Below, in pieces: positions 6,980 to 25,107 of a DNA stretch of 32,010 nucleotides. Below the pieces are notes generated by a model, which was not told where the DNA came from, searched no databases, and worked only from the letters and a program-made list of their open reading frames with translations. Source of the DNA: Spirochaetota bacterium. Its GTDB lineage: Bacteria; Spirochaetota; UBA4802; UBA5550. The position numbers were made by a program, and so were the translations under genes. The stretch is taken from NCBI GenBank assembly GCA_016928865.1, contig JAFGJX010000046.1, positions 1 to 32,010 on the forward strand. Reading direction: 5' to 3'. How positions within the stretch are numbered: position 1 is the stretch's first letter; each line of letters opens with the position of its first letter.

Positions 6980-7001
6980 CCGTCATCACGGATGATGACG
7001 G
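6980..7001 (+). promoter_or_regulatory. leader hairpin just upstream of the flagellin ribosome binding site
   Basis: CCGTCATCA (6980-6988) and TGATGACGG (6993-7001) form a perfect 9-base-pair stem with a 4-base CGGA loop. It ends 9 bases before AGGAGG (7011-7016). There is no T-run after it, so it is not a terminator. A role in mRNA stability or translational control of flagellin is inferred only from its position. Confidence 0.6.
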
Positions 7002-7021
7002 GGAATTTCAAGGAGGAAAAT

Positions 7022-7870
7022 ATGATTATAAACCACAACATTGCGGCCATTTTCTCCCACCGCACCCTCAAGTTTCACGACTGGAGCATCACCAAAGACA
7101 TAGAAAAACTCTCGTCCGGCATGAGGATCAACAAGGCCGGTGATGACGCGTCCGGTCTCGCGGTTTCGGAAAAGATGCGTTCGCAGATCCAGGGCCTCAG
7201 GCAGGCCGAGCGGAACACCGAGGACGGCATGTCCATGATACAGACGGCCGAGGGCTACCTCGAAGAGGTGCACAGCATCATCCAGCGTGTCCGCGTGCTG
7301 GCCGTCCAGGCCGCCAACGGCATCTACACCAATGAAGACCGCCAGCTGATTCAGGTCGAGGTCTCCGAGCTGGTCGACGAGATCGATCGGATCGCGTCCC
7401 AGGCGGAGTTCAACAAGATGAAGCTCCTGACCGGCGCGTTCGCGCGGCTTCATCCGACCGCGTCGATGTGGTTCCACATGGGCCCGAACATGCACCAGCG
7501 CGAGCGGGTCTTCATCGAGACCATGTCCACGGCTGCGCTCGGACTCAGGAACCCGACCGTTCTCACCTTCATATCGATCTCGACGCCGGGCAAGGCAAAC
7601 TCGGTCATCGGCCTGGCGGACGAGGCGCTGCGGATCATTTCCAAGCAGCGGGCTGACCTGGGCGCGTACTACAACCGTCTCGAGCACGCGGCCAAGGGCC
7701 TCATGAACGCGTACGAGAACGTACAGGCGTCCGAGTCTCGGATCCGCGACACCGACATGGCGGAGCAGATGACCTCCTACGTCCGGTACCAGATCCTGAC
7801 GCAGGCGGCAACATCGATGCTCGCCCAGGCGAACGCGAAGTCGCAGACCATACTCGAGCTGTTGAGATAA
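7022..7870 (+). CDS. flaB: periplasmic flagellar filament core protein FlaB (flagellin)
   Basis: This 282-residue flagellin starts at 7022 behind AAGGAGG with an ideal spacer; an in-frame ATG at 6992 would place the binding site inside the gene and is rejected. The N-terminal D0/D1 block reads [16 protein letters not shown], then [20 protein letters not shown]. The C-terminal block reads [20 protein letters not shown] and ends in the typical TILELLR. The middle [19 protein letters not shown] is the short spirochaetal FlaB insertion that replaces the variable D2/D3 domains. The overall size and this middle segment fit Leptospira-type FlaB. FlaB forms the core of endoflagella in the periplasm. 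The gene stands alone between a regulated leader and a strong terminator, suggesting a monocistronic, highly expressed unit. Other flaB copies and sheath proteins are expected elsewhere. Confidence 0.96.
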
Positions 7871-8131: not shown

Positions 8132-8494
8132 ATGAACAATCTATTCTGGTTACTACTCTCCATCGCCCTCGGCGCAGCAGGACAGCTTTTTTTAAAGATG
8201 GCATCTGACGGCGCGGGCCACCAGGGCTCTCTCGTCCAGTTTTACGGCGCGCTGGCAACAAATCGTAATCTCTGGTTCGGGTTCATTTCATACGGGCTCA
8301 GCTTTGCCATTTGGATGAGGGTGCTTACGGCATATGAGCTGAGCTACGCCCGACCGATGGTGGGGCTCGGGTATGTGATGACCGTTATCCTGGCGATCAT
8401 ATTTCTCGGCGAGAAGGTTACCATGATGCGCTGGATAGGTATATTACTGACTGTTTCAGGAATCATCCTCCTGAACATCTCCAATAATAACTGA
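8132..8494 (+). CDS. small EamA/SMR-like membrane transporter (ArnE/ArnF-like)
   Basis: The 120-residue product has four predicted membrane helices (about residues 3-22, 45-65, 73-92 and 97-116), the size and layout of small multidrug-resistance and ArnE/ArnF proteins. ELSYARPMVGLGYVMTVILA followed by LGEKVTMMRWIGILLTVSGI resembles the 'A...AY...G.G...t.l.g...lgE.....r..Gi.lI..Gv' end of that superfamily. ArnE/ArnF are the proposed flippase for undecaprenyl-phosphate aminoarabinose. Here the gene opens an operon with a prenyltransferase and GtrA, which favours a polyprenyl-phosphate-sugar flippase over drug export. The ribosome binding site is weak. Its stop codon overlaps the next gene's ATG (TGATG). 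Family firm; substrate inferred. Confidence 0.78.
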   Translation: MNNLFWLLLSIALGAAGQLFLKMASDGAGHQGSLVQFYGALATNRNLWFGFISYGLSFAIWMRVLTAYELSYARPMVGLGYVMTVILAIIFLGEKVTMMRWIGILLTVSGIILLNISNNN

Positions 8495-9591
8495 TGCGAG
8501 GAAGATCGTTGAAAAAATCAAAAGTTGTCATATTAAAAACAAAACCTGAAACGGTGCTTGCCGATTATGAAAAATTACTGAAAATGGCAAATATAAAAGA
8601 TGCCCTTCCAAAGGGCGCTCCCGTCATACTGAAGGACAACATCTCATGGCACCTGCCCATGCCGGGCGCCAATTCAACCCCCTGGCAGCTCGAGGGCACT
8701 ATTATGACGCTCAGGAATCTTGGATATAAAGATATCGTTGCCGTTGAAAACAAGACCGTGGTCACCAAGCCAAAGCACGGGGAAAAACTGAACAAGTTTG
8801 ACATCGTTTTCAACAAGTACAACATCCCGGTGAAATACAATTTTAACCCGGAGGACATGAAATGGATCGTGTACCGGCCAAAGGCAAAGCTCCGCGTCCT
8901 GCCGAAGATTTACCCTGAAGGGATCAGGATACCGGACTACTTTATCGGGAAAAACATCATTCACTTCCCTACCATGAAATGCCATATCTACACGACCACC
9001 ACCGGATCCATGAAAAATGCCTTCGGCGGACTGCTCAGCACACGCCGCCACTACACGCATTCCTGGATCCACGAGACACTGGTTGACCTCTTGAAAATTC
9101 AGAAGGAGATACACCCTGGGATCTTCGCCGCGATGGACGGAACCACCGCCGGCAACGGGCCGGGCCCGAGGACGCTCATCCCGGTGAAGACGGACTATAT
9201 TCTCGCTTCAGCAGACCAGGTCGCGATTGACGCGGTAGCGGCCAGGCTTATGGGATTTGATCCTATGAAGCTCGATTATATACGGCTGGCAGTGGAGGAA
9301 GGGCTCGGCAACGGCGATCCGCGGAACATTGAGATCGCGGGCGAAGACGTTTCAAAGGTCAACCTGAATTTCTCCGTCGGGGACAACCTCGCCAGCACTG
9401 TAGGCGACCTGCTCTGGTTCGGCCCCCTGAAGGCCCTGCAGAAACTGATGTTCCACACTCCGCTCGTCTATATATTCATAATGGCTTCGGCGGTCTACCA
9501 CGACAGGGTATGGTGGAATCTGAAAGGCAGAAAAATACTGGCGGCATGGAAGGCTGAAAGCCCGTGGGGACAATTATGGGACCGGTATTGA
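8494..9591 (+). CDS. DUF362 domain-containing protein
   Basis: The 365-residue product matches the DUF362 pattern: an N-terminal APVILKDNISWH block, a central motif TMKCHIYTTTTGSMKNAFGG (compare 'K.H..t..tgalKNlfG'), ATAGNGPGPRT-like residues (DGTTAGNGPGPRTL), and a C-terminal ADQVAIDAVAARLMGFDP. Some family members carry ferredoxin-type cysteine clusters, but none are present here. A hydrophobic segment lies near the C-terminus (residues about 320-335). The biochemical role of DUF362 is not established, and I do not assign one. The ATG at 8494 overlaps the preceding stop, which suits translational coupling. A TTG at 8509 has the better Shine-Dalgarno sequence (GAGGAAG) and may be the true start. 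Its place in the operon ties it to polyprenyl-linked sugar metabolism. Confidence 0.85.
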   Translation: MRGRSLKKSKVVILKTKPETVLADYEKLLKMANIKDALPKGAPVILKDNISWHLPMPGANSTPWQLEGTIMTLRNLGYKDIVAVENKTVVTKPKHGEKLNKFDIVFNKYNIPVKYNFNPEDMKWIVYRPKAKLRVLPKIYPEGIRIPDYFIGKNIIHFPTMKCHIYTTTTGSMKNAFGGLLSTRRHYTHSWIHETLVDLLKIQKEIHPGIFAAMDGTTAGNGPGPRTLIPVKTDYILASADQVAIDAVAARLMGFDPMKLDYIRLAVEEGLGNGDPRNIEIAGEDVSKVNLNFSVGDNLASTVGDLLWFGPLKALQKLMFHTPLVYIFIMASAVYHDRVWWNLKGRKILAAWKAESPWGQLWDRY

Positions 9592-9592
9592 G

Positions 9593-10189
9593 ATGCGTCT
9601 GGCATTATTCGATTTTGATGGGACCATCACCACGCGCGACAGCCTCGGCGACTTTTTACTTCATACCTGCGGCGCGCTGCGCTGCGCCGCTGCACTAATC
9701 ATGCTTGCGCCGGTGCTCGCGCTTCGCCTTGCCGGGAAAATTCCCAACTGGAAGGCCAAGGAGGCGGTCTTCCGGCATTTTCTTGAGGGGTGTCCCGTGA
9801 CGGACTTCGCCGCCGCAGCTTCTGACTACGCGGCAAACCGCCTGCCGCGAATCATCAGGAAGATCGCGCTGGAGCGCATAGAGTGGCACCGCTCCCAGGG
9901 ACACCGCGCGATTATCGTATCCGCCTCGCCGGAGCAATGGATCAAGCCATGGTGCGGCCGGTATGGCATGGAGGTGATAGCCACCCGTCTTGAAATACGC
10001 GCGGACATACTGACAGGCGGGATCGACGGCGCCAATTGCTACGGCGAGGAAAAAGCGAGGCGAATACGGGAAACCGTAAACCTGGCAGAATATGAATACA
10101 TATACGCCTACGGAGACAGCAAAGGGGATACTGAAATGCTGTCGATGGCGAACGAACGTTATTACAACTGGACACAGGTCACGCAATGA
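9593..10189 (+). CDS. HAD-IB family phosphatase (SerB-like)
   Basis: All four HAD motifs are visible in this 198-residue protein. DFDGT at residues 7-11 gives the nucleophile D7 and the acid/base D9. IIVSAS around residue 110 gives motif II. K154 in YGEEKARR is motif III, and GDSKGD (174-179) gives the metal ligands of motif IV. A basic helical cap with a hydrophobic segment (about 31-48) sits between motifs I and II, and may lie against the membrane. HAD-IB enzymes are mostly phosphoserine-phosphatase-like. The gene begins one base after the DUF362 stop and overlaps the prenyltransferase start by ATGA. HAD and UbiA domains are also found fused in some bacteria, so this enzyme probably acts on the UbiA product, for example by removing the 5-phosphate of a polyprenyl phosphoribosyl lipid. 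That substrate is an inference. Confidence 0.88.
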   Translation: MRLALFDFDGTITTRDSLGDFLLHTCGALRCAAALIMLAPVLALRLAGKIPNWKAKEAVFRHFLEGCPVTDFAAAASDYAANRLPRIIRKIALERIEWHRSQGHRAIIVSASPEQWIKPWCGRYGMEVIATRLEIRADILTGGIDGANCYGEEKARRIRETVNLAEYEYIYAYGDSKGDTEMLSMANERYYNWTQVTQ

Positions 10190-11052
10190 AAGCGCTTTTG
10201 CGGATTATGAGGGTACATCAATATGTGAAGAACCTCTTCATCTTCCTGCCCGTTTTTTTCGGCCTCCAGATCACTAACAGCAGGCTGATGCTGATGACTG
10301 CGCTTGCCTTTCTTTTCTTCAGTCTGACGGCCAGTGCGATGTACATTGTTAACGACATCAGGGACTGCGAGGACGACCAAAAACATCCGGTAAAGAAAGA
10401 CAGACCCGTTGCATCCGGCGCCGTGACGAAAAAAGCCGCAACCCTCCTGGCCGCGATCCTGGCTGCAGCGGGGCTGACTGGCGCATTATTACTCAACCGC
10501 CAGATGTTTATGATCACGCTTGTTTACGTGCTGATCAACATACTCTATACCACGGTCCTGAAACACGTCGCCATCGTCGACATCATGGTCATTGCGGTCG
10601 GTTTCGTGCTTCGGTTGTTTGTGGGGTCATCGGTTTCAGGAGTCCATCTATCTATGTGGATCATCATCATGACCTTCCTCCTTGCGATCTTTCTCGCCCT
10701 GGCCAAGCGGAGGGAGGATGTGGCACTCTATATCGATATGGGTGAAAAAGCCCGAAAGGTCATCGACGGCTACAACATAGAATTTTTGAATATCTCGATG
10801 TACATCATGGCGGCGGTGATCATAATATCCTATGTCATGTACACCATATCGCCGCTCATACTGAACCGTCCCCATGGCGACAAGATATATCTGACCATGC
10901 TCTGGGTTGTTGCAGGCATACTCCGCTACTTACAACTGACGCTCGTGTTCAACAGCACCGGATCGCCCACCAGGGTGCTTCTGACCGACAGGTTCCTGCA
11001 GATCGTCCTCGCTGGCTGGGTACTCTCCTTCTGGATCCTTATCTACCTATGA
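10186..11052 (+). CDS. UbiA-family prenyltransferase, decaprenyl-phosphate phosphoribosyltransferase-like
   Basis: The 288-residue membrane protein has the UbiA metal-prenyl motif NDIRDCEDDQKHP (N56, D57, D60, D64), followed by KDRPVASGAV. The first block RIMRVHQYVKNLFIFLPVFF and the later DIMVIAVGFVLRLFVGSSVSG are what I recall of the phosphoribosyltransferase branch (mycobacterial DPPR synthase, Rv3806c) rather than ubiquinone enzymes. LTDRFLQIVLAGWVL near the end also fits that branch. DPPR synthase transfers 5-phosphoribose from PRPP to a polyprenyl phosphate, the first step towards lipid-linked ribose or arabinose. The gene overlaps both neighbours (HAD and GtrA) by ATGA, indicating tight coupling. 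The lipid chain length and sugar are inferred. Another aromatic-prenylation role is less likely because no quinone or haem gene is nearby. Confidence 0.85.
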   Translation: MKALLRIMRVHQYVKNLFIFLPVFFGLQITNSRLMLMTALAFLFFSLTASAMYIVNDIRDCEDDQKHPVKKDRPVASGAVTKKAATLLAAILAAAGLTGALLLNRQMFMITLVYVLINILYTTVLKHVAIVDIMVIAVGFVLRLFVGSSVSGVHLSMWIIIMTFLLAIFLALAKRREDVALYIDMGEKARKVIDGYNIEFLNISMYIMAAVIIISYVMYTISPLILNRPHGDKIYLTMLWVVAGILRYLQLTLVFNSTGSPTRVLLTDRFLQIVLAGWVLSFWILIYL

Positions 11053-11462
11053 TATATCTGGCGATTAAATACGCCTTCTTCGCCGCGATCGCGACCGGCG
11101 CAAACATACTGAGCCAGCACCTGTGCCTTCAGCTTTACGGCGGTCCTTTCAGCCTATACGCTGCCATGGCTGCGGGAACGCTTGTCGGACTGGTCATCAA
11201 GTACGTGCTGGATAAAAAATTCATCTTTTATCACACGACCGCTGGCGCCCGCGACGACATGCGCAAGTTCATCATTTATTCATCCATGGGCGTCTTTACC
11301 ACCCTGATCTTCTGGGGGAGCGAGCTTCTCTTTAACTACCTCTTTACCTTCACGGAAGCGAAATATCTTGGCGCCGCCATCGGACTCGGCATCGGCTACA
11401 TCACCAAGTACAACCTTGACAAGCGCTTCGTGTTCCGGGAATGGCAGAAAGAGACTGACTGA
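11049..11462 (+). CDS. GtrA family membrane protein
   Basis: This 137-residue protein has four membrane helices and the GtrA signature in its second half (FIIYSSMGVFTTLIFWGSEL) and end (GIGYITKYNLDKRFVF, compare 'Y..nR.wVF'). The same 'YVLDKKFIF' pattern occurs at the end of the first helical pair. GtrA proteins are thought to flip polyprenyl-phosphate sugars across the inner membrane; the mycobacterial member Rv3789 is linked to decaprenyl-phosphate arabinose. It is the last gene of the operon, starting four bases inside the prenyltransferase gene. Together with the ArnE/F-like protein at the operon start it gives two candidate flippases for one lipid-linked sugar. No terminator is evident after it. 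Confidence 0.88.
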   Translation: MIYLAIKYAFFAAIATGANILSQHLCLQLYGGPFSLYAAMAAGTLVGLVIKYVLDKKFIFYHTTAGARDDMRKFIIYSSMGVFTTLIFWGSELLFNYLFTFTEAKYLGAAIGLGIGYITKYNLDKRFVFREWQKETD

Positions 11463-11747: not shown

Positions 11748-12962
11748 ATGAAGGTCCTTATGAAAAGCGAACGATCTGACTTCCTGATCATCGGCGCGGG
11801 GATCATCGGACTGGCGATCGCGCGATATCTTCGCGAGAAGCATCCTTCCGCGACAATCACCATCATCGAGAAAGAGCCGGACATCTGCCGCCACGCCAGC
11901 GGCAGGAACAGCGGCGTGCTGCACGCGGGATTCTACTACACGGCGGACTCGCTGAAGGCCAGGTTCACGAAAGAAGGCAACGCGGAGATGACCGCCTACT
12001 GCATCAAAAAAAAGCTGAGAATCAACCGGTGCGGGAAGGTCGTGGTCGCGCGGAACGAACGCGAGCTCGGCCCCCTGTTCGAGCTTGAGGCGCGGGCCAG
12101 GGCCAATGGCGTCGATGTCGCGATCATCGACGAGAAGGAGCTTGCGTCCATCCATCAGAACGTGAAAACGCGCGGCCACGCCCTGTATTCGCCCGCCACC
12201 TCAACCATCGACCCGGTAGAGGTCTGCTCGTCAATCAGGAAGGAGCTGCTCGACGGCGGCGTCATCATGCGGTTCGGGCGCGCCTACCTGCGGCGCGCGG
12301 GCGAACACGCGGTCGCCACGACGACCGGCACGCACGAGGCGCGCGTCATCATCAACGCGGCCGGCCTGTACGCCGATACGATCGCGAGGGATTTCGGGTT
12401 CGCGCGCGACTACATCATAATCCCCTTCAAGGGCATCTATCTGAAATACACGGGCCCGGACAAACCGGTAGCGATCAACGTGTATCCCGTTCCCGACCTG
12501 AAAAATCCCTTCCTGGGCGTACACTACACCGTTACCGTTGACGGGACCGTCAAGATCGGCCCGACCGCCATCCCCGCGCTGTGGCGCGAAAACTACGAGG
12601 GCCTGGACAATTTCAGGCTTCGTGAATTCCTCCAGATTGTATCGCGCGAGGCAGCACTGTTCCTCCTGAATTCCTTCGGGTTCAGGACGCTCGCACTCGA
12701 AGAGATAAAAAAATACAGCAGGCGATATCTTATCGGGCTCGCCGCGGGCATGGTCCACCGGGCGGAAACCGGCCGCTTCAACGAATGGAGCAGACCGGGC
12801 ATACGCGCCCAGCTGCTTGATGTCCGGACAAACCGGCTGGTCCAGGACTTCATCATAGAAGGGGACAAGGGCTCGGTGCATGTCCTGAACGCTGTCAGTC
12901 CCGCGTTTACGAGCAGCTTTCCCTTTGTCAGGTGGATCGTTGACTCCCATGTGAAATTATAA
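11748..12962 (+). CDS. lhgO: FAD-dependent oxidoreductase, L-2-hydroxyglutarate oxidase-like
   Basis: The 404-residue protein begins with a Rossmann FAD-binding motif IIGAGIIGLAIARYL (residues 14-28). CRHASGRNSGVLHAGFYYT follows at about 47-65, the highly conserved active-site block of the LhgO/L2HGDH branch of the DAO family. STIDPVEVC and the late block RPGIRAQLLD, then DFIIEGD and LNAVSPAFTSSF also fit LhgO. These enzymes oxidise L-2-hydroxyglutarate to 2-oxoglutarate and pass electrons to membrane quinones. The start may be the ATG at 11748 or the one at 11760 (MKSER), which has AAGG before it. The gene has its own candidate promoter and no metabolic partner nearby. A related 2-hydroxyacid or sugar-lactone substrate cannot be excluded, but the motif match is close. 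Confidence 0.88.
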   Translation: MKVLMKSERSDFLIIGAGIIGLAIARYLREKHPSATITIIEKEPDICRHASGRNSGVLHAGFYYTADSLKARFTKEGNAEMTAYCIKKKLRINRCGKVVVARNERELGPLFELEARARANGVDVAIIDEKELASIHQNVKTRGHALYSPATSTIDPVEVCSSIRKELLDGGVIMRFGRAYLRRAGEHAVATTTGTHEARVIINAAGLYADTIARDFGFARDYIIIPFKGIYLKYTGPDKPVAINVYPVPDLKNPFLGVHYTVTVDGTVKIGPTAIPALWRENYEGLDNFRLREFLQIVSREAALFLLNSFGFRTLALEEIKKYSRRYLIGLAAGMVHRAETGRFNEWSRPGIRAQLLDVRTNRLVQDFIIEGDKGSVHVLNAVSPAFTSSFPFVRWIVDSHVKL

Positions 12963-13097
12963 ACTCATTTTTTTATAATTGAAGGAACTATCATGACCCG
13001 TTACAGGTCTAATTATGATTGCATCCAAAGTTATGAAACGCGCTCTGAGATTGTTAATCCAATGCAGATTTATACCATACGCTCAAGGAGTCCTCAC

Positions 13098-14069
13098 ATG
13101 CTCGGCAGAATATTCATTTCACTGATGGTGCTCTTCGCCTGTTCGTGCGGCACGCTTATTGTACTGCCTGTGGACAACGATTACGACAGGCGGCGCGAAG
13201 AGGAGATGCGGCGCATCGAACAGGAGCGGCAGCACAGGATCGACGAGGAACGCCGGAGGCAGATGGAGGAGGAGCGCCTGTGGAGGCTGGAACAGGAGCG
13301 ACAGCGGAAAATCGAGGAGGAACGCAGGCGGAAACTTGAGAATGACCGCAGAAAAAAACTGGAGCAGGACCGACTTTGGAAGCAGGAGCAGGACCGACTC
13401 CGCAGGCTCGAGCAGGAACGCCGAAAAAAGATAGAGGAAGAAAAGAGGAAAATCGAGCAGGAAAAGCGGAGGCTTGAAGAAGAGCGGCTGCGGCATCTCA
13501 AGGAAAAGGAGAGGCAAGAGCGTCTGCGGAAGATGGAAGAAGAACGGAAGAATAAGCTCGAGGCTGAGAGGAAAAAACAGGAGGAAGAACGACTCAGGCT
13601 CGAACGGGAGCGCCGGGAAAAGCTCAACGAAGAGCGCAGACAGAAACTCGAACAGGAGCGGCAGAAGAAACATCAAGAGGAGCGCCTGAAGAAACTCGAA
13701 GAGGAACGAAAGAAGATCCTTGAGGAGGGGCGCAGAAAAAAGCTTGAAGAGGAACGCCGTAAAAGCGAACAGGAGCGTCTCAGGCTTGAGCAGGATCGCC
13801 GGGAGCTGATCAGGCGGGAGCAGGAGAAAAAAGCCGGGGAGGAGAAGCAGAAGAAGCTCGAGGAAGAACACAAAAAGATCGAGGAAGAGCGCTGGAAGAT
13901 GGAACGGGAACGATGGAAGCTTGAGGACAAGCGCCGCGAAAAACAGGACAAACCCGCGAAGAGCAAAACGGGCCGGACCGGAGAACAGGACACTCTCGCG
14001 AAATGCATTGAGTCGTGCCAGGACCTGAAGGGCCTGGCGCAGGTTGCGTGCCTCCAGAAGTGCAGGTAG
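13098..14069 (+). CDS. putative lipoprotein: long charged (E/R/K) helix with C-terminal twin CX3C
   Basis: I place the start at the ATG at 13098, behind AAGGAG with an 8-base spacer, rather than at 12993, because it begins a lipoprotein signal peptide (MLGRIFISLMVLFACSCG, Cys15 or Cys17 as lipid site). After a short linker, residues about 29-290 consist almost only of Glu, Arg, Lys, Leu and Gln in a repeating 'RRKKLEQER' style. This is either a coiled coil or a stable single alpha-helix of the ER/K type. The final segment AKCIESCQDLKGLAQVACLQ carries C303, C307, C318 and C322 in a CX3C-X10-CX3C pattern, probably a disulfide-pinned helical hairpin. The protein should be membrane-anchored and extend through the periplasm or outwards. 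Function unknown; a spacer, tether or cell-shape role is an inference from shape alone. Confidence 0.82.
   Translation: MLGRIFISLMVLFACSCGTLIVLPVDNDYDRRREEEMRRIEQERQHRIDEERRRQMEEERLWRLEQERQRKIEEERRRKLENDRRKKLEQDRLWKQEQDRLRRLEQERRKKIEEEKRKIEQEKRRLEEERLRHLKEKERQERLRKMEEERKNKLEAERKKQEEERLRLERERREKLNEERRQKLEQERQKKHQEERLKKLEEERKKILEEGRRKKLEEERRKSEQERLRLEQDRRELIRREQEKKAGEEKQKKLEEEHKKIEEERWKMERERWKLEDKRREKQDKPAKSKTGRTGEQDTLAKCIESCQDLKGLAQVACLQKCR
13179..13950 (+). repeat. degenerate codon-level repeats encoding the charged helix
   Basis: The DNA is a run of imperfect 24-to-27-base units around GAGGAACGC/AAACTCGAG-type codons. The units are too divergent and lack conserved spacers, so this is a coding repeat rather than a CRISPR array. 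Such stretches can change length by slippage or unequal recombination. Confidence 0.6.
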
Positions 14070-17238: not shown

Positions 17239-18384
17239 TCAAACCATGTGCTCCGGCGGGCGGGCCTTGACTGACTTTTTCTGAGGGATAAAAATCCTGT
17301 ATCCGATCCCCATCTTCATGAACAGGTACAGGAATGCCACCAGGGAGATCAGCACGGCGGCAACGAGAGCCTTGTTGTACTCCATCCGGTTGAATATCTC
17401 GCCTTCCCCGATCTTGGGCATCTTCTTCGGCGCGATAGGGAAGCTGTTTTTCCGGGCAAGGGTCTTCAGGTAGTTGATATTGATCACCGGCACATCCGCG
17501 CGGGCAAACCGCGACATGACGCTGTCAACGCGCATTGCCCGCTGCGAAGGCTTGAGGTTCAGACCCGACCGATACCGGCGCTTGCCGATAAACGAACCGA
17601 TCGCCACCGTGCCGCCCCCCACGTTGATATACGCGGCGACCTGCGCGTCCCGCGCCTGGTCGTGATAGATCTCCATGCGCGCGTTGATGCGCGTCTTCAT
17701 GTCGCCAAACTCCAGAATGGGAATGCCGTACCCCGCTATTGTTTCGCGCAGTATTTTCTTCCCCTCCTCCGACATGCCCATAGCGCTGTCCTGCACGCCG
17801 CCGAGCGATGCGGCAACGGTGCGGTAGGGGGAAAATTTCTTCTCATACAGCTCGTGCTCCATGTCAAGCCAGGTCAGGCCGGGGATATTGGCTCCCCAGG
17901 TGGAGGAGGAGACGCTGGTGATCATGATGAGGCGGAGGTCCAGCGCCTTTGCCGCGGAAAGGACCGCGAGGTTCATGGCGGGAAACGAGCCGGTGAGGGA
18001 AACCGCCACCGTGCCGCCGTTTTTCACCTTCGCCTCCTTCAGCATGGCCACGATGACCGCGGCCCAGTTCGGATTGATGCTAGTCAGCTTCGAGTCGATA
18101 TCTACCGTGGTGCTGGTGATCGGCGTCGAAAGCATGCCGATCAGGCCGGTCCTCATCGGGTCGATCACCCTGTTGATGGGGCCGATTGTGGCGATCCGGT
18201 GCCGCCTGATTATTTCGATCCCCTGAAGCATGTAGCGCGCGGCCTCTATCTTTTCGTCGTGCGACGGCTGCTTAACATTGACTTTGAATGACTCGACCAT
18301 GATCATCCCGAGGACCGCCATGATCGCGATCACCACGTGGATCTGCCACGAGACGGTGGTCGGCTTCCAGATGAGCTTTTTCAT
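17239..18384 (-). CDS. pgsW: poly-gamma-glutamate system protein PgsW
   Basis: The 381-residue protein has one membrane helix near each end (about residues 15-32 and 340-358) and a large domain between them. Blocks such as GPINRVIDPMRTGLIG, STPITSTTVDIDSKLTSINP and VAVSLTGSFPAMNLAVLSAA fit the PgsW family found beside PgsB and PgsC in many Gram-negative bacteria. DMEHELYEKKFSPYRTVAAS and INVGGGTVAIGS are further conserved-looking parts. Its biochemical role is not known; it is assumed to help make or export poly-gamma-glutamate. Its ATG overlaps the PgsC stop by ATGA, so the two are translated together. It is the last gene of the set, and no PgsA/CapA gene follows. Family naming is from memory of this gene order and sequence style. 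Confidence 0.83.
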   Translation of the reverse strand: MKKLIWKPTTVSWQIHVVIAIMAVLGMIMVESFKVNVKQPSHDEKIEAARYMLQGIEIIRRHRIATIGPINRVIDPMRTGLIGMLSTPITSTTVDIDSKLTSINPNWAAVIVAMLKEAKVKNGGTVAVSLTGSFPAMNLAVLSAAKALDLRLIMITSVSSSTWGANIPGLTWLDMEHELYEKKFSPYRTVAASLGGVQDSAMGMSEEGKKILRETIAGYGIPILEFGDMKTRINARMEIYHDQARDAQVAAYINVGGGTVAIGSFIGKRRYRSGLNLKPSQRAMRVDSVMSRFARADVPVININYLKTLARKNSFPIAPKKMPKIGEGEIFNRMEYNKALVAAVLISLVAFLYLFMKMGIGYRIFIPQKKSVKARPPEHMV

Positions 18385-18839
18385 AGCGCAAGGTCCCTGC
18401 CGAAAAAAAGGATAAGTATCAGCCGCACGATGGCGCTTGACGTCACCAGGGCCGACACGGTCTCGACAATGCCCTGCCTGTCCATCCAGATGGCGATGAG
18501 GCCGGGGATGATGTAGCCGACGATGGTAAGCTCAACCGCCTGCGGCCCCATGGGGACCGGCTCGAGAGTGCGCACCAGCCAGCCGAGAAGGAAACCGAGC
18601 AGTATCATGAGTACCGTTCGCCTCCTGCCGTAAATAATCATGAAAGAGCCGAGCGAATGAACGATAAAATAAGTAAGCAGGCTCACCGCCACGGTGGCGA
18701 GAATGACCAGCGGCCTGTCGAGATAGAGCGCGATATATCCGGGCACCACCATGCCGCCGGCCGCGATGCCAAAAAATTCCGAAAAAAGGAGGCTCACGCA
18801 CAGCCCCAGTCCGATTGAAAGGGTTATAATGTTTTCCAT
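18381..18839 (-). CDS. pgsC: poly-gamma-glutamate biosynthesis protein PgsC/CapC
   Basis: This 152-residue integral membrane protein has four or five helices and the PgsC look: SIGLGLCVSLLFSEFFGIAA, GGMVVPGYIALYLDRP, then VGYIIPGLIAIWMDRQGIVE. The two similar 'PGYIALYLDRP' and 'PGLIAIWMDRQG' halves are typical of this small family. PgsC works with the PgsB amide ligase in the membrane to polymerise glutamate. The gene starts 65 bases after the PgsB stop and overlaps PgsW by four bases, so the order is pgsB-pgsC-pgsW. The ribosome binding site is poor, which suggests dependence on upstream translation. Confidence is high because ligase, PgsC and PgsW occur together. Confidence 0.9.
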   Translation of the reverse strand: MENIITLSIGLGLCVSLLFSEFFGIAAGGMVVPGYIALYLDRPLVILATVAVSLLTYFIVHSLGSFMIIYGRRRTVLMILLGFLLGWLVRTLEPVPMGPQAVELTIVGYIIPGLIAIWMDRQGIVETVSALVTSSAIVRLILILFFGRDLAL

Positions 18840-18904
18840 GTCATATTCGTCTTATACGCCCGCGCCGGCCGGATCCCCTTTTTCTTGGAACGTCGCGTCT
18901 CCCG

Positions 18905-20098
18905 TCAGGACGGAACCGCATCGGACCTGTTCTTGAAATAGGTCACCAGCTCCAGCCCCGGTCCGGCTATGTTACCAACGCCCATGACCAGCGTGTTCTT
19001 CGTGCAATACTTCAAAATCTCTTCAAAAATCGTCTCTGTTTCAAGGTCTTCCGCGTTTATAAAATGCCGGGCGTCTATCCCCGCCTTCACCGCGTACCGC
19101 ACGAGAAAGTACGAGCCCGAGCCGATCAGGATGAAGCGGTCGGCGCGCGTCCATTGCGCCAGGGCCTCGCCGAACTGGCGCGACCGGTCGGGGCGGTCGA
19201 TGCGGCTGTTTATGATCATGAGACGCGAGGTGACGTCCGGGTGCTTGTCAAGGGCCATGCGCCACAGCATCCCGGTGGATTCAGGATCATTGCCGGCAAA
19301 GCCGTTGATGAAATGGATGCGGCGGCCGAAAAAATCGAGCGAGAGGTCGCTCATCGCGCCGATGTCCGGCATGGCCTTTTTCATGCCCCGCAGCGCGGTC
19401 TCCCGCGACACGCCCGCAGACGCGCAGACCCTGAGCGCCAGGGCTATATTGTCGCGGTGCTCGACGTAGGGAAAGTCGGCAAGGTCGGCTTCGCTGACGG
19501 CCCCGACCTCGTCCTCCGGTATCACGACAAGCTCGGTGCCGCGATCCGCGCAGGTTTCAGCGAACTCCCCGGGATAGTCGCGCTCGCACGTAAAGAGCTT
19601 CCTGCCGTGCGGGACCGTTCCAAGCAGGGCCAGGGCCACGTCCCGCTCCGACGGACCCATCGCATCGAGGTGGTCCTCCCGCACGTTGGTGATCACGCCA
19701 TGGGTCGCCCGCACAAGCTTCAGCTCGCACAGGCTCTGCAGATACGGCTGTATCGCCATGCATTCGATGACCAGGGCTTCCGCCCTGTTTCTCGCCGCGA
19801 AGGCGATAATCCGCACCTGCTCGATGATGTTCGGCTTCGACTGGCGGTATACCGGATATTCGGTGCCGTCGTGTATGATCATGCGCGGGAGCGTACCGGT
19901 GGTCTTCGCAAAGGTCCTGATGCCTCCTTCGCGCAGGCCCGCCGCGATGAGCCTGGTCACGGAGGATTTGCCCCGCGTGCCGTTCACGTGGATCCTGACC
20001 GGTATCGACCCCAGGTTCTTCATGTGCTTCAGGTACTCCGCGGCGCCGAGGCCAATGATTATCAGGACCACGACCCCCATGAGCATCATTTCATTCAC
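18905..20098 (-). CDS. pgsB: poly-gamma-glutamate synthase PgsB/CapB
   Basis: This Mur-ligase-like enzyme of 397 residues, close to the 393 of Bacillus PgsB, starts with a membrane helix (about 5-20). The P-loop VNGTRGKSSVTRL follows at residues 38-50. FAKTTGTLPRMI, ECMAIQPYLQ, GVITNVREDHLDAMGPSERD and HFINGFAGNDPEST are the other conserved PgsB blocks. It activates glutamate carboxyl groups with ATP and forms amide bonds at the gamma carboxyl. I chose the GTG at 20098 because GGAGGGGA lies just before it; the frame continues to an ATG at 20155, but that extension looks non-native. The gene precedes pgsC and pgsW, and follows an acyl-CoA synthetase-like gene by about 100 bases. Product size, D/L composition and fate (anchored or released) cannot be read here. 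Confidence 0.92.
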   Translation of the reverse strand: MNEMMLMGVVVLIIIGLGAAEYLKHMKNLGSIPVRIHVNGTRGKSSVTRLIAAGLREGGIRTFAKTTGTLPRMIIHDGTEYPVYRQSKPNIIEQVRIIAFAARNRAEALVIECMAIQPYLQSLCELKLVRATHGVITNVREDHLDAMGPSERDVALALLGTVPHGRKLFTCERDYPGEFAETCADRGTELVVIPEDEVGAVSEADLADFPYVEHRDNIALALRVCASAGVSRETALRGMKKAMPDIGAMSDLSLDFFGRRIHFINGFAGNDPESTGMLWRMALDKHPDVTSRLMIINSRIDRPDRSRQFGEALAQWTRADRFILIGSGSYFLVRYAVKAGIDARHFINAEDLETETIFEEILKYCTKNTLVMGVGNIAGPGLELVTYFKNRSDAVPS

Positions 20099-20200
20099 GG
20101 ACCATCCCCTCCGGCTTGCGCTGATACTACTAGCACCACGTTCCGCGCCGGTCAAGATATTTATCAGGATTGAGGCAAATGCCGGGCTCCCATTCCCCAG

Positions 20201-23625: not shown

Positions 23626-25107
23626 TTACTTGCTGTAGTTTTCCTTTATGAAGCTGTTGAGATAATCATCCGGATTATCGACAGCCTCGCGGGGAATTGT
23701 AAAATGCTCAAGCTTCATGAGCCTCAGACCATGAAAATAATCACGGAAGAGGTCGTTGCAGAGCTGTTTTATGCTTTTCAGCCGTTCCCCCGCCATCTCC
23801 TTCAGCCTGTCAACCGCCTCCTTGCTGAAGTCGAGGTAGATGCCATGCTCCACGAGAAACTCCTTCTGGAAGCTCTGGATGCCCTCTTCGATGAGGAGTT
23901 CCCTGAGCACCTCGCCCGGGTTCTCTATCACCTGCCGGTCCACGGTCAGCTTCTTGATGGCGGTCGAGGGGAGGCTTTTTTCGAATTTTATCAGCACCTT
24001 TTCGAACACGCTCAGGAGACCGCGCGCGCCGGTCTTTTCGCTGTGCGCCTTTTTCGCAAGCAGCTTGAGCGACTCATCGGTAAAGCTCAGGTCAATACCG
24101 TAGGCCCTGAAGTCCAGCTTCTTGCCCAGCACGACGGTACTGTACTTGTTTTTGAGTATTTTATAGAGCCCTTCCTCGTCCAGCTCGTTCAACACCACAT
24201 ATACGGGAAGGCGCCCCACGAACTCGGACTCAAAGCCGAACTCTATGAGGTCTTCCGTCTTGACCTTCTTGAGTATATCCTGCCTGGCCTCTCCGGCAAC
24301 CTTGCTTTTCTCAAAGCCGATCGACTGTTTGTTGAGCCGCTTGTTGATCATGTCTTCCAGGCCGCTGAATGCGCCCGAGACGATGAAGAGTATGTTTCTG
24401 GTATTTATCTTCTGGCGGGAAACCTTCCCGGTCCTCTGCGCCTCCATGGCGGCCTCCACCTGGGACGCCAGGTCGTGGGGCGTCTTGAGGTCCACCTCCG
24501 CTTCCTCCATGAGCTTCAGAAGATTGCGCTGCACGCCGCTGCGCGACACGTCCGGTCCGTACATGTGGCCTGTCGAGGCGATCTTGTCGATTTCGTCCAA
24601 GTATATGATGCCATACTCGGCCTTCCTGATGTCTCCATCCGCCTCGTGCACCAGGTCCCTGACCAGGTCCTCAACATCGCCTCCCACGTAGCCGGTCTCG
24701 CTGAATTTTGTCGCGTCCGCCTTGACGAAAGGGACGCCGATCTTTTTCGCGATGAGCTTTACGATATAGGTCTTTCCCACACCCGTAGGCCCGATGAGAA
24801 GCATGTTGCTCTTGATATTGCCGACAAGCCGCTCTTTCGGAGGGATCTTGCTGTCCAGATTCATCCGGTTGAAATGGGTACACACCTTGGTGGCGATAAC
24901 CTCGATCGTCTCCTCCTGTCCCACCACGTACTGATTGAGAAAGCTTTCCAGCTCTTCCGGTTTTATATCAAAATTGAACTCCGAGGCTTTTTTGCCTGTT
25001 ACGCCCGGCTTGTCCCCTATGGTTTCCGCGTTCGCCTGGGCCTCTTCCGCGTCAAGGTTCAAAATCTCCTCGATGCTCTTTTCAGGATCAAATGCTGGTT
25101 TTGTCAT
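23626..25107 (-). CDS. ClpX-like AAA+ unfoldase without zinc-binding domain
   Basis: The 493-residue protein has the ClpX ATPase core: Walker A GPTGVGKT (106-113), the pore loop GYVG (139-142), Walker B IIYLDEID (167-174), sensor-1 region SGAF (244-247) and a sensor-2 block TGARGL. An IGF tripeptide (263-265) sits where ClpX docks on ClpP. The N-terminal zinc-binding domain is replaced by about 40 acidic residues, and the usual RKH pore-2 loop is not seen in the corresponding stretch (about 205-235). A C-terminal extension of about 100 residues follows the small domain. It resembles ClpX-related proteins of spirochaetes and deltaproteobacteria as I recall them, and is probably a second ClpX with its own substrates. 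AGAGGA precedes the ATG by 6 bases. No clpP lies next to it. Confidence 0.88.
   Translation of the reverse strand: MTKPAFDPEKSIEEILNLDAEEAQANAETIGDKPGVTGKKASEFNFDIKPEELESFLNQYVVGQEETIEVIATKVCTHFNRMNLDSKIPPKERLVGNIKSNMLLIGPTGVGKTYIVKLIAKKIGVPFVKADATKFSETGYVGGDVEDLVRDLVHEADGDIRKAEYGIIYLDEIDKIASTGHMYGPDVSRSGVQRNLLKLMEEAEVDLKTPHDLASQVEAAMEAQRTGKVSRQKINTRNILFIVSGAFSGLEDMINKRLNKQSIGFEKSKVAGEARQDILKKVKTEDLIEFGFESEFVGRLPVYVVLNELDEEGLYKILKNKYSTVVLGKKLDFRAYGIDLSFTDESLKLLAKKAHSEKTGARGLLSVFEKVLIKFEKSLPSTAIKKLTVDRQVIENPGEVLRELLIEEGIQSFQKEFLVEHGIYLDFSKEAVDRLKEMAGERLKSIKQLCNDLFRDYFHGLRLMKLEHFTIPREAVDNPDDYLNSFIKENYSK

Follow-up and report, generated by a model that had tools for sequence, protein, structure and literature searches.

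A putative lipoprotein with a long charged rod and a C-terminal twin-CX3C motif in a member of the Spirochaetota

The rod gene and its signal region

The window analysed here is a 32,010-nucleotide stretch from the genome of an uncultured Spirochaetota bacterium (assembly GCA_016928865.1, contig JAFGJX010000046.1, positions 1 to 32,010), and the genes and features discussed below are collected in Table 1. The initial annotation had described the rod gene product as a lipoprotein-type signal followed by an E/R/K-rich stretch and a C-terminal CX3C-X10-CX3C motif, and this architecture is borne out by the sequence of the gene; the Pro/Gly linker which lies between the rod and the hairpin was absent from that description. 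The ATG at 13098 is preceded by a good Shine-Dalgarno sequence and was taken as the start, while a longer in-frame ATG at 12993 was rejected because the signal would end up buried. Two of the six cysteines of the protein (C15 and C17) fall within the signal region, and the remaining four within the hairpin.

Table 1. Features of the rod gene and of neighbouring genes in the window
Feature	Position	Strand	Basis or remark
Flagellin gene	6992-7870
SMR/EamA, DUF362, HAD-IB phosphatase, UbiA prenyltransferase, GtrA cluster	8132-11462	+	Tight cluster
Candidate promoter-like site GTGAAA-17-TATAAT	12951-12979	+	Consensus scan, 10/12 matches; ~120-150 bp 5' of the gene
Shine-Dalgarno AAGGAG	13085-13090	+	Read directly; 7 nt 5' of the ATG
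Putative rod-hairpin lipoprotein gene	13098-14069	+	323 aa; homologues in G003 and G010
Signal peptide, residues 1-16	13098-13145	+	Sequence; 18/27 first residues identical in G003
Predicted lipid-modified Cys17	13146-13148	+	Position kept in seven lipoprotein relatives
Short segment GTLIVLPVDN after the lipid Cys	13149-13178	+	Visually resembles C-SFEVKIDPYDND, C-GRATLSVDPYHHN and C-GALIVVPEDD of relatives
ER/K-rich rod, residues 28-283	13179-13946	+	Predicted one continuous helix, 38 nm; 8-residue (24-bp) repeat
Flexible Pro/Gly linker, residues 284-295	13947-13982	+	pLDDT <50; separates rod from hairpin
C-terminal twin-CX3C hairpin module, residues 303-322	14004-14063	+	Exact CX3C-X10-CX3C
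Poly-gamma-glutamate operon	17239-20155	-	3 kb from the rod gene
TIGR04332 poly-gamma-glutamate system protein	17239-18384	-	Poly-gamma-glutamate operon
PgsC	18381-18839	-	Poly-gamma-glutamate operon
PgsB	18905-20155	-	Poly-gamma-glutamate operon
ClpX-like AAA ATPase	23626-25107	-	493 aa

The N-terminus of the window protein reads MLGRIFISLMVLFACSC-GTLIVLPVDNDYD, and as the homologue from the same genus (G003) carries MLGRLFISLMILCSLSC-GALIVVPEDD, we take C17 to be the lipid-type cysteine. It is preceded by a hydrophobic region and ACS, as expected of a lipoprotein signal, and the relatives have SLS-C, AWS-C, SSA-C, AVS-C, SVS-C and GLS-C at this position, all of which are of a loose type compared with the strict L-A-G-C lipobox. 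The lipoprotein-type signal suggested initially is upheld by the conservation of this cysteine in seven of seven lipoprotein relatives and by the presence of Lgt, LspA and LolA in the genome, and the protein is probably anchored in the membrane via a lipid. As VKOR is also encoded there, the genome is equipped for lipidation, lipoprotein sorting and disulfide formation; VKOR itself is found in 18 of the 20 genomes of the family and does not therefore track the hairpins. We note that this genome has two Lgt genes, which lie outside the window (G000 contigs C93 and C55).

The charged rod

Residues 29–295 are composed of 28% E, 23% R, 16% K, 9% L and 8% Q (84% together), arranged in eight-residue units of the type KLEEERRK whose 24-bp coding units are only ~60–80% alike. 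The charge-pattern analysis proposed in the initial annotation found opposite-charge pairs at i+3/i+4 far above the level of shuffled sequences (acid to base at +3, z = 8.2; base to acid at +4, z = 8.1), and only 9 like-charge pairs at i+4 where 63.5 were expected. There are 0.81 i+3/i+4 ion pairs per residue in the rod compared with 0.03 in the Braun lipoprotein Lpp and 0.18 in GCN4 (both control sequences were entered from general knowledge). Hydrophobic occupancy of the heptad a/d positions is 0.30 in the rod and 0.306 in shuffles but 0.98 in Lpp and 0.85 in GCN4, and by this measure a Braun-type hydrophobic core is absent. The hydrophobic residues tend instead to return every eight residues, equivalent to 80 degrees round a helix, and so leave no stripe for a partner helix.

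AlphaFold2 run without an alignment produced one helix for residues 28–283 (256 residues or 38.4 nm, in agreement with the ~260 residues and ~39 nm estimated earlier) with pLDDT 86–96 in most 10-residue blocks, though it should be noted that in single-sequence mode it tends to render charged stretches as helix and that a monomer model is silent on oligomerisation. The model, the charge pairing and the lack of a heptad seam are in keeping with the earlier suggestion of a single stable helix, and a single helix rather than a coiled coil is supported for the rod, which would then be monomeric. It might be argued that these rods are ordinary low-complexity coiled coils forming dimers or bundles, in which internal hairpins fold the rod back and the whole serves as structural filler, as an AlphaFold2 monomer cannot exclude oligomers and the hairpins found inside the G003 and G010 rods could reverse the direction of the chain. 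We think this improbable, given an a/d occupancy no different from shuffles and far from that of Lpp and GCN4, a density of ion pairs that neither control approaches, and hydrophobics which drift round the helix.

Lpp is itself a lipid-anchored helical rod in the diderm envelope, as the window protein is predicted to be, but Lpp is a trimeric coiled coil with a peptidoglycan-linked C-terminal lysine and the window protein appears to have neither of these features. A closer likeness is to the ER/K helices of myosin VI, myosin X, caldesmon and drebrin, which share the E/R/K composition, the alternating charged blocks, the i+3/i+4 salt bridges and the absence of a heptad seam (PMC5347031); the rod has both the dense opposite-charge pairs and the lack of a hydrophobic seam by which single alpha-helices of this type are recognised. 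It differs from them in belonging to a bacterial protein that is predicted to be exported and lipid-tethered, and in having an 8-residue rather than a 7-residue repeat.

The cysteine module and its relatives

The initial annotation had proposed a search for the same CX3C-X10-CX3C motif in other proteins, and relatives were sought with the C-terminal peptide first and a profile second. This recovered 40 copies in 18 proteins from loci of related spirochaetes, with X10 in all 40, although retrieval by a gap-free profile favours equal spacing. The copies share the signature CX3C-x2-[LYF]-x-G-x2-[RK]-x2-C-x3-C (consensus C-E-x-R-C-x-x-[LYF]-x-G-x-x-[RK]-x-x-C-[ILV]-x-x-C), and the loop glycine at module position 10 is present in 37 of them. 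When spacers of 4–20 residues were scanned in the related loci, 41 matches were found at exactly 10 (one of which is an antisense chance match inside a rod gene) and one each at 5, 15 and 19, so that the motif is not a chance pattern. Loss of the cysteines from all orthologues had been named beforehand as grounds for abandoning the proposal, and the pattern is present in every relative found.

The module occurs in 13 of 393 genomes of the phylum at E ≤ 0.001, and a second profile (A2) added a further genome, G209, with a match (E 7.6e-5) that was genuine on inspection; weaker A2 matches in other families (E 0.001–0.02) stand outside the module tally. The two named relatives are uncultured Spirochaetes (CALMRZ01 and RBG_13_51_14). 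G176 also matched the mini-lipoprotein profile but was set aside for want of the four-cysteine motif, and identity with the EexN lipoprotein was likewise rejected, with only the mini relative G009 scoring (16.9 bits vs an NCBIfam cut-off of 33) and a plasmid search giving no match. No Pfam, NCBIfam or PDB family matched the module over threshold, the whole window protein had no matches in Pfam, NCBIfam or Foldseek, and bacterial lipoproteins with a twin CX3C were absent from the literature searched, which left most subscription journals out of reach. The motif is a genuine module, and apparently one without an earlier description.

AlphaFold2 drew residues 296–322 of the window protein, run alone as a single sequence, as one helix and not as a hairpin (pLDDT ~63–73). 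A hairpin fold was predicted for a three-hairpin relative (L096, with L095 as a second sequence), which was modelled as three helix-loop-helix units at pLDDT ~70–80, every CX3C lying inside one of the unit's two helices or at its edge. Cysteine pairs in both helices of this model, and a genome encoding VKOR, are consistent with the oxidisable hairpin cap postulated at the outset. The small Tim proteins offered then as an analogue (Tim9/Tim10) do have a twin-CX3C helical hairpin held by two disulfides, and this part of the comparison stands, but they differ in spacing and assembly, are Mia40 substrates and show no detectable homology to the module, and are poorer analogues than the plant alpha-hairpinins. 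These peptides, which include the vicilin-buried peptides, are helix-loop-helix structures defined by the motif CX3C-X4-20-CX3C (PMC11591084), which residues 303–322 of the window protein fit with X10. Among the PDB folds listed for the three-hairpin relative, the known hairpin that comes closest is the vicilin-buried peptide VBP-8 (6o3q), at an E of 6.7 that is not significant. Searches of Pfam and of PDB sequences gave nothing over threshold that would point to homology with plant alpha-hairpinins, from which the spirochaete module also differs in being bacterial, in its predicted lipid anchor and in a spacing fixed at X10 with a loop glycine.

The shared cysteine framework (PMC11591084) raises the possibility that the hairpin is itself active, as in plants: a peptide that acts on membranes or inhibits proteases and is put on display or released against competitors, with the rod as no more than its carrier. 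Some modules score weakly in Pfam to Antimicrobial21, Ole_e_6 and Toxin_2, small Cys-stabilised peptides being among the Pfam names that fell short of threshold, and secreted multi-hairpin proteins occur without a rod. We give this little credence, as the Pfam scores are far under significance and convergent cysteine spacing is common, no immunity or dedicated export genes were seen, and a three-hairpin gene sits in a genus-conserved neighbourhood of cysS, an ABC transporter and enolase, unlike a weapon.

The module is found in three settings: minimal lipoproteins, small secreted multi-hairpin proteins, and rod proteins. One-hairpin minimal lipoproteins are encoded by G112 (59 aa), G009 (61 aa), G031 (64 aa) and G209 (91 aa), the spacer of the last being already E/K/D-rich. 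Small secreted rod-less proteins with two to four hairpins are found in every congeneric genome, including that of the window (G000:C100:69662-69994), and within the genus their genes mostly share the cysS, ABC transporter and enolase neighbourhood. One such protein from the window's own genome (L055:9040-9537), a small Cys-rich protein with three hairpins, adjoins cysS and is conserved across the genus, and a secreted four-hairpin protein (L063:9114-9845) comes from a different family of the same order. The rod proteins carry one to three hairpins, with a single C-terminal one in the window protein. The G003 rod protein (557 aa, three hairpins) is clearly homologous to it at the N-terminus and rod end, and is the only rod homologue among the five other genomes of the genus; the rod protein of G010 (440 aa) has its two hairpins inside the rod, and G003 encodes a further protein (212 aa) in which an ordinary signal peptide is followed by rod, hairpin and rod. 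As hairpins also occur inside the G003 and G010 rods, the hairpin is not always a tip. The first two hairpins are 130 residues apart in both G010 (L054:3685-5007) and G003 (L053:2569-4242), but the two gaps align no better in register than at other 8-residue-repeat offsets, and we take the equal length to be a coincidence rather than a ruler.

A possible stalk and its counterparts

The distance from the lipid-type cysteine to the first hairpin cysteine is 18 residues in G112, 20 in G031, 23 in G009, 44 in G209, 96 in G010, 102 in G003 and 285 in the window protein. Since the ends are constant and the middle is variable, the hairpin appears to be the working part and the middle a spacer. We tentatively favour, with a confidence that falls a little short of even, a dispensable and length-variable lipoprotein stalk which displays an oxidised hairpin at a distance from a membrane. 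The protein would leave the cytoplasm through Sec, receive a lipid at Cys17 and be anchored in a membrane, with residues 28–283 forming one monomeric, salt-bridged ER/K helix of ~38 nm followed by a short flexible linker and a helical hairpin of ~25 residues pinned by two disulfides (Cys303–Cys322 and Cys307–Cys318, by analogy with alpha-hairpinins). The rod would keep the hairpin, perhaps a conserved binding or sensing element with a partner of its own, distant from the membrane, and rod length could evolve freely through duplication of the 24-bp unit.

The initial annotation had also considered a ruler or a tether to endoflagella or peptidoglycan, and in such an arrangement, with the lipid seated in the outer membrane (or the inner one), the rod would cross the periplasm, where the hairpin would meet peptidoglycan, the opposite membrane or endoflagella. 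At 38 nm the helix could reach across the periplasm of a flagellated spirochaete, a flagellin gene lies within the window, and the oxidising VKOR works in the periplasm. A periplasmic ruler needs a conserved length, and a spacer that varies more than tenfold and a rod that is absent from most relatives, which are equally spirochaetal, argue against a fixed span; spacers of 18 and 285 residues cannot both bridge one gap. No peptidoglycan-binding domain was detected and no neighbourhood of the rod gene is conserved among the window, G003 and G010, which leaves the proposed tether to endoflagella or peptidoglycan without support, and we regard this arrangement as unlikely. We prefer the surface stalk that the initial annotation had also listed, and think it likelier that the stalk points outwards from what we infer to be the outer membrane than that it bridges the periplasm over a set distance.

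Bacterial surfaces are already known to present terminal domains over variable distances, and the Periscope proteins SasG, Rib and Sgo_0707 likewise have a repeat-grown variable rod between an anchor and a terminal domain (PMC8201768). They differ from the window protein in having tandem folded domains rather than one charged helix, and a cell-wall anchor rather than a predicted lipid anchor. The near-identical DNA repeats of the Periscope type are not found in the rod gene, where the length differs between species and the repeats are too diverged for strain-level switching, and the surface location of the window protein is only predicted. By analogy, then, it may be described as an alpha-hairpinin-type hairpin on an ER/K helix in a periscope-like layout, and as far as tested is a member of none of these groups by descent; it is a real and unusual protein assembled from known building blocks in a new combination. 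A more far-reaching proposal, which we consider possible but rather doubtful, is that the module (CX3C-x2-L-x-G-x2-R-x2-C-x3-C) defines a new bacterial family of disulfide-pinned hairpins on interchangeable spacers, in which a hairpin lipoprotein of ~60 aa became a surface stalk as a single ER/K helix grew to separate its hairpin from the lipid, to give a one-helix 'periscope'.

If the stalk reading is correct, very long single ER/K helices have a use in a bacterial envelope, and the envelope proteins of bacteria gain a disulfide hairpin module of strict spacing that is apparently undescribed and has no entry in Pfam or NCBIfam. The spacers of 18 to 285 residues between similar ends would then provide a natural length series allowing a direct test of the spacer-length question, and the small size of the module would suit NMR and binding screens. 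There would be little significance if the rod were a mere drifted low-complexity insertion.

Several neighbours of the rod gene are also of note. A poly-gamma-glutamate capsule made by the nearby operon would be a possible reason for a stalk that clears the capsule, to judge only from the proximity of the genes. The ClpX-like ATPase scores 317 bits vs a ClpX cut-off of 359, and its match begins at model position 57, so that it is apparently without the N-terminal zinc domain and has ~95 extra C-terminal residues. The composition of the tight cluster upstream of the rod gene (SMR/EamA to GtrA) suggests a lipid-linked pathway.
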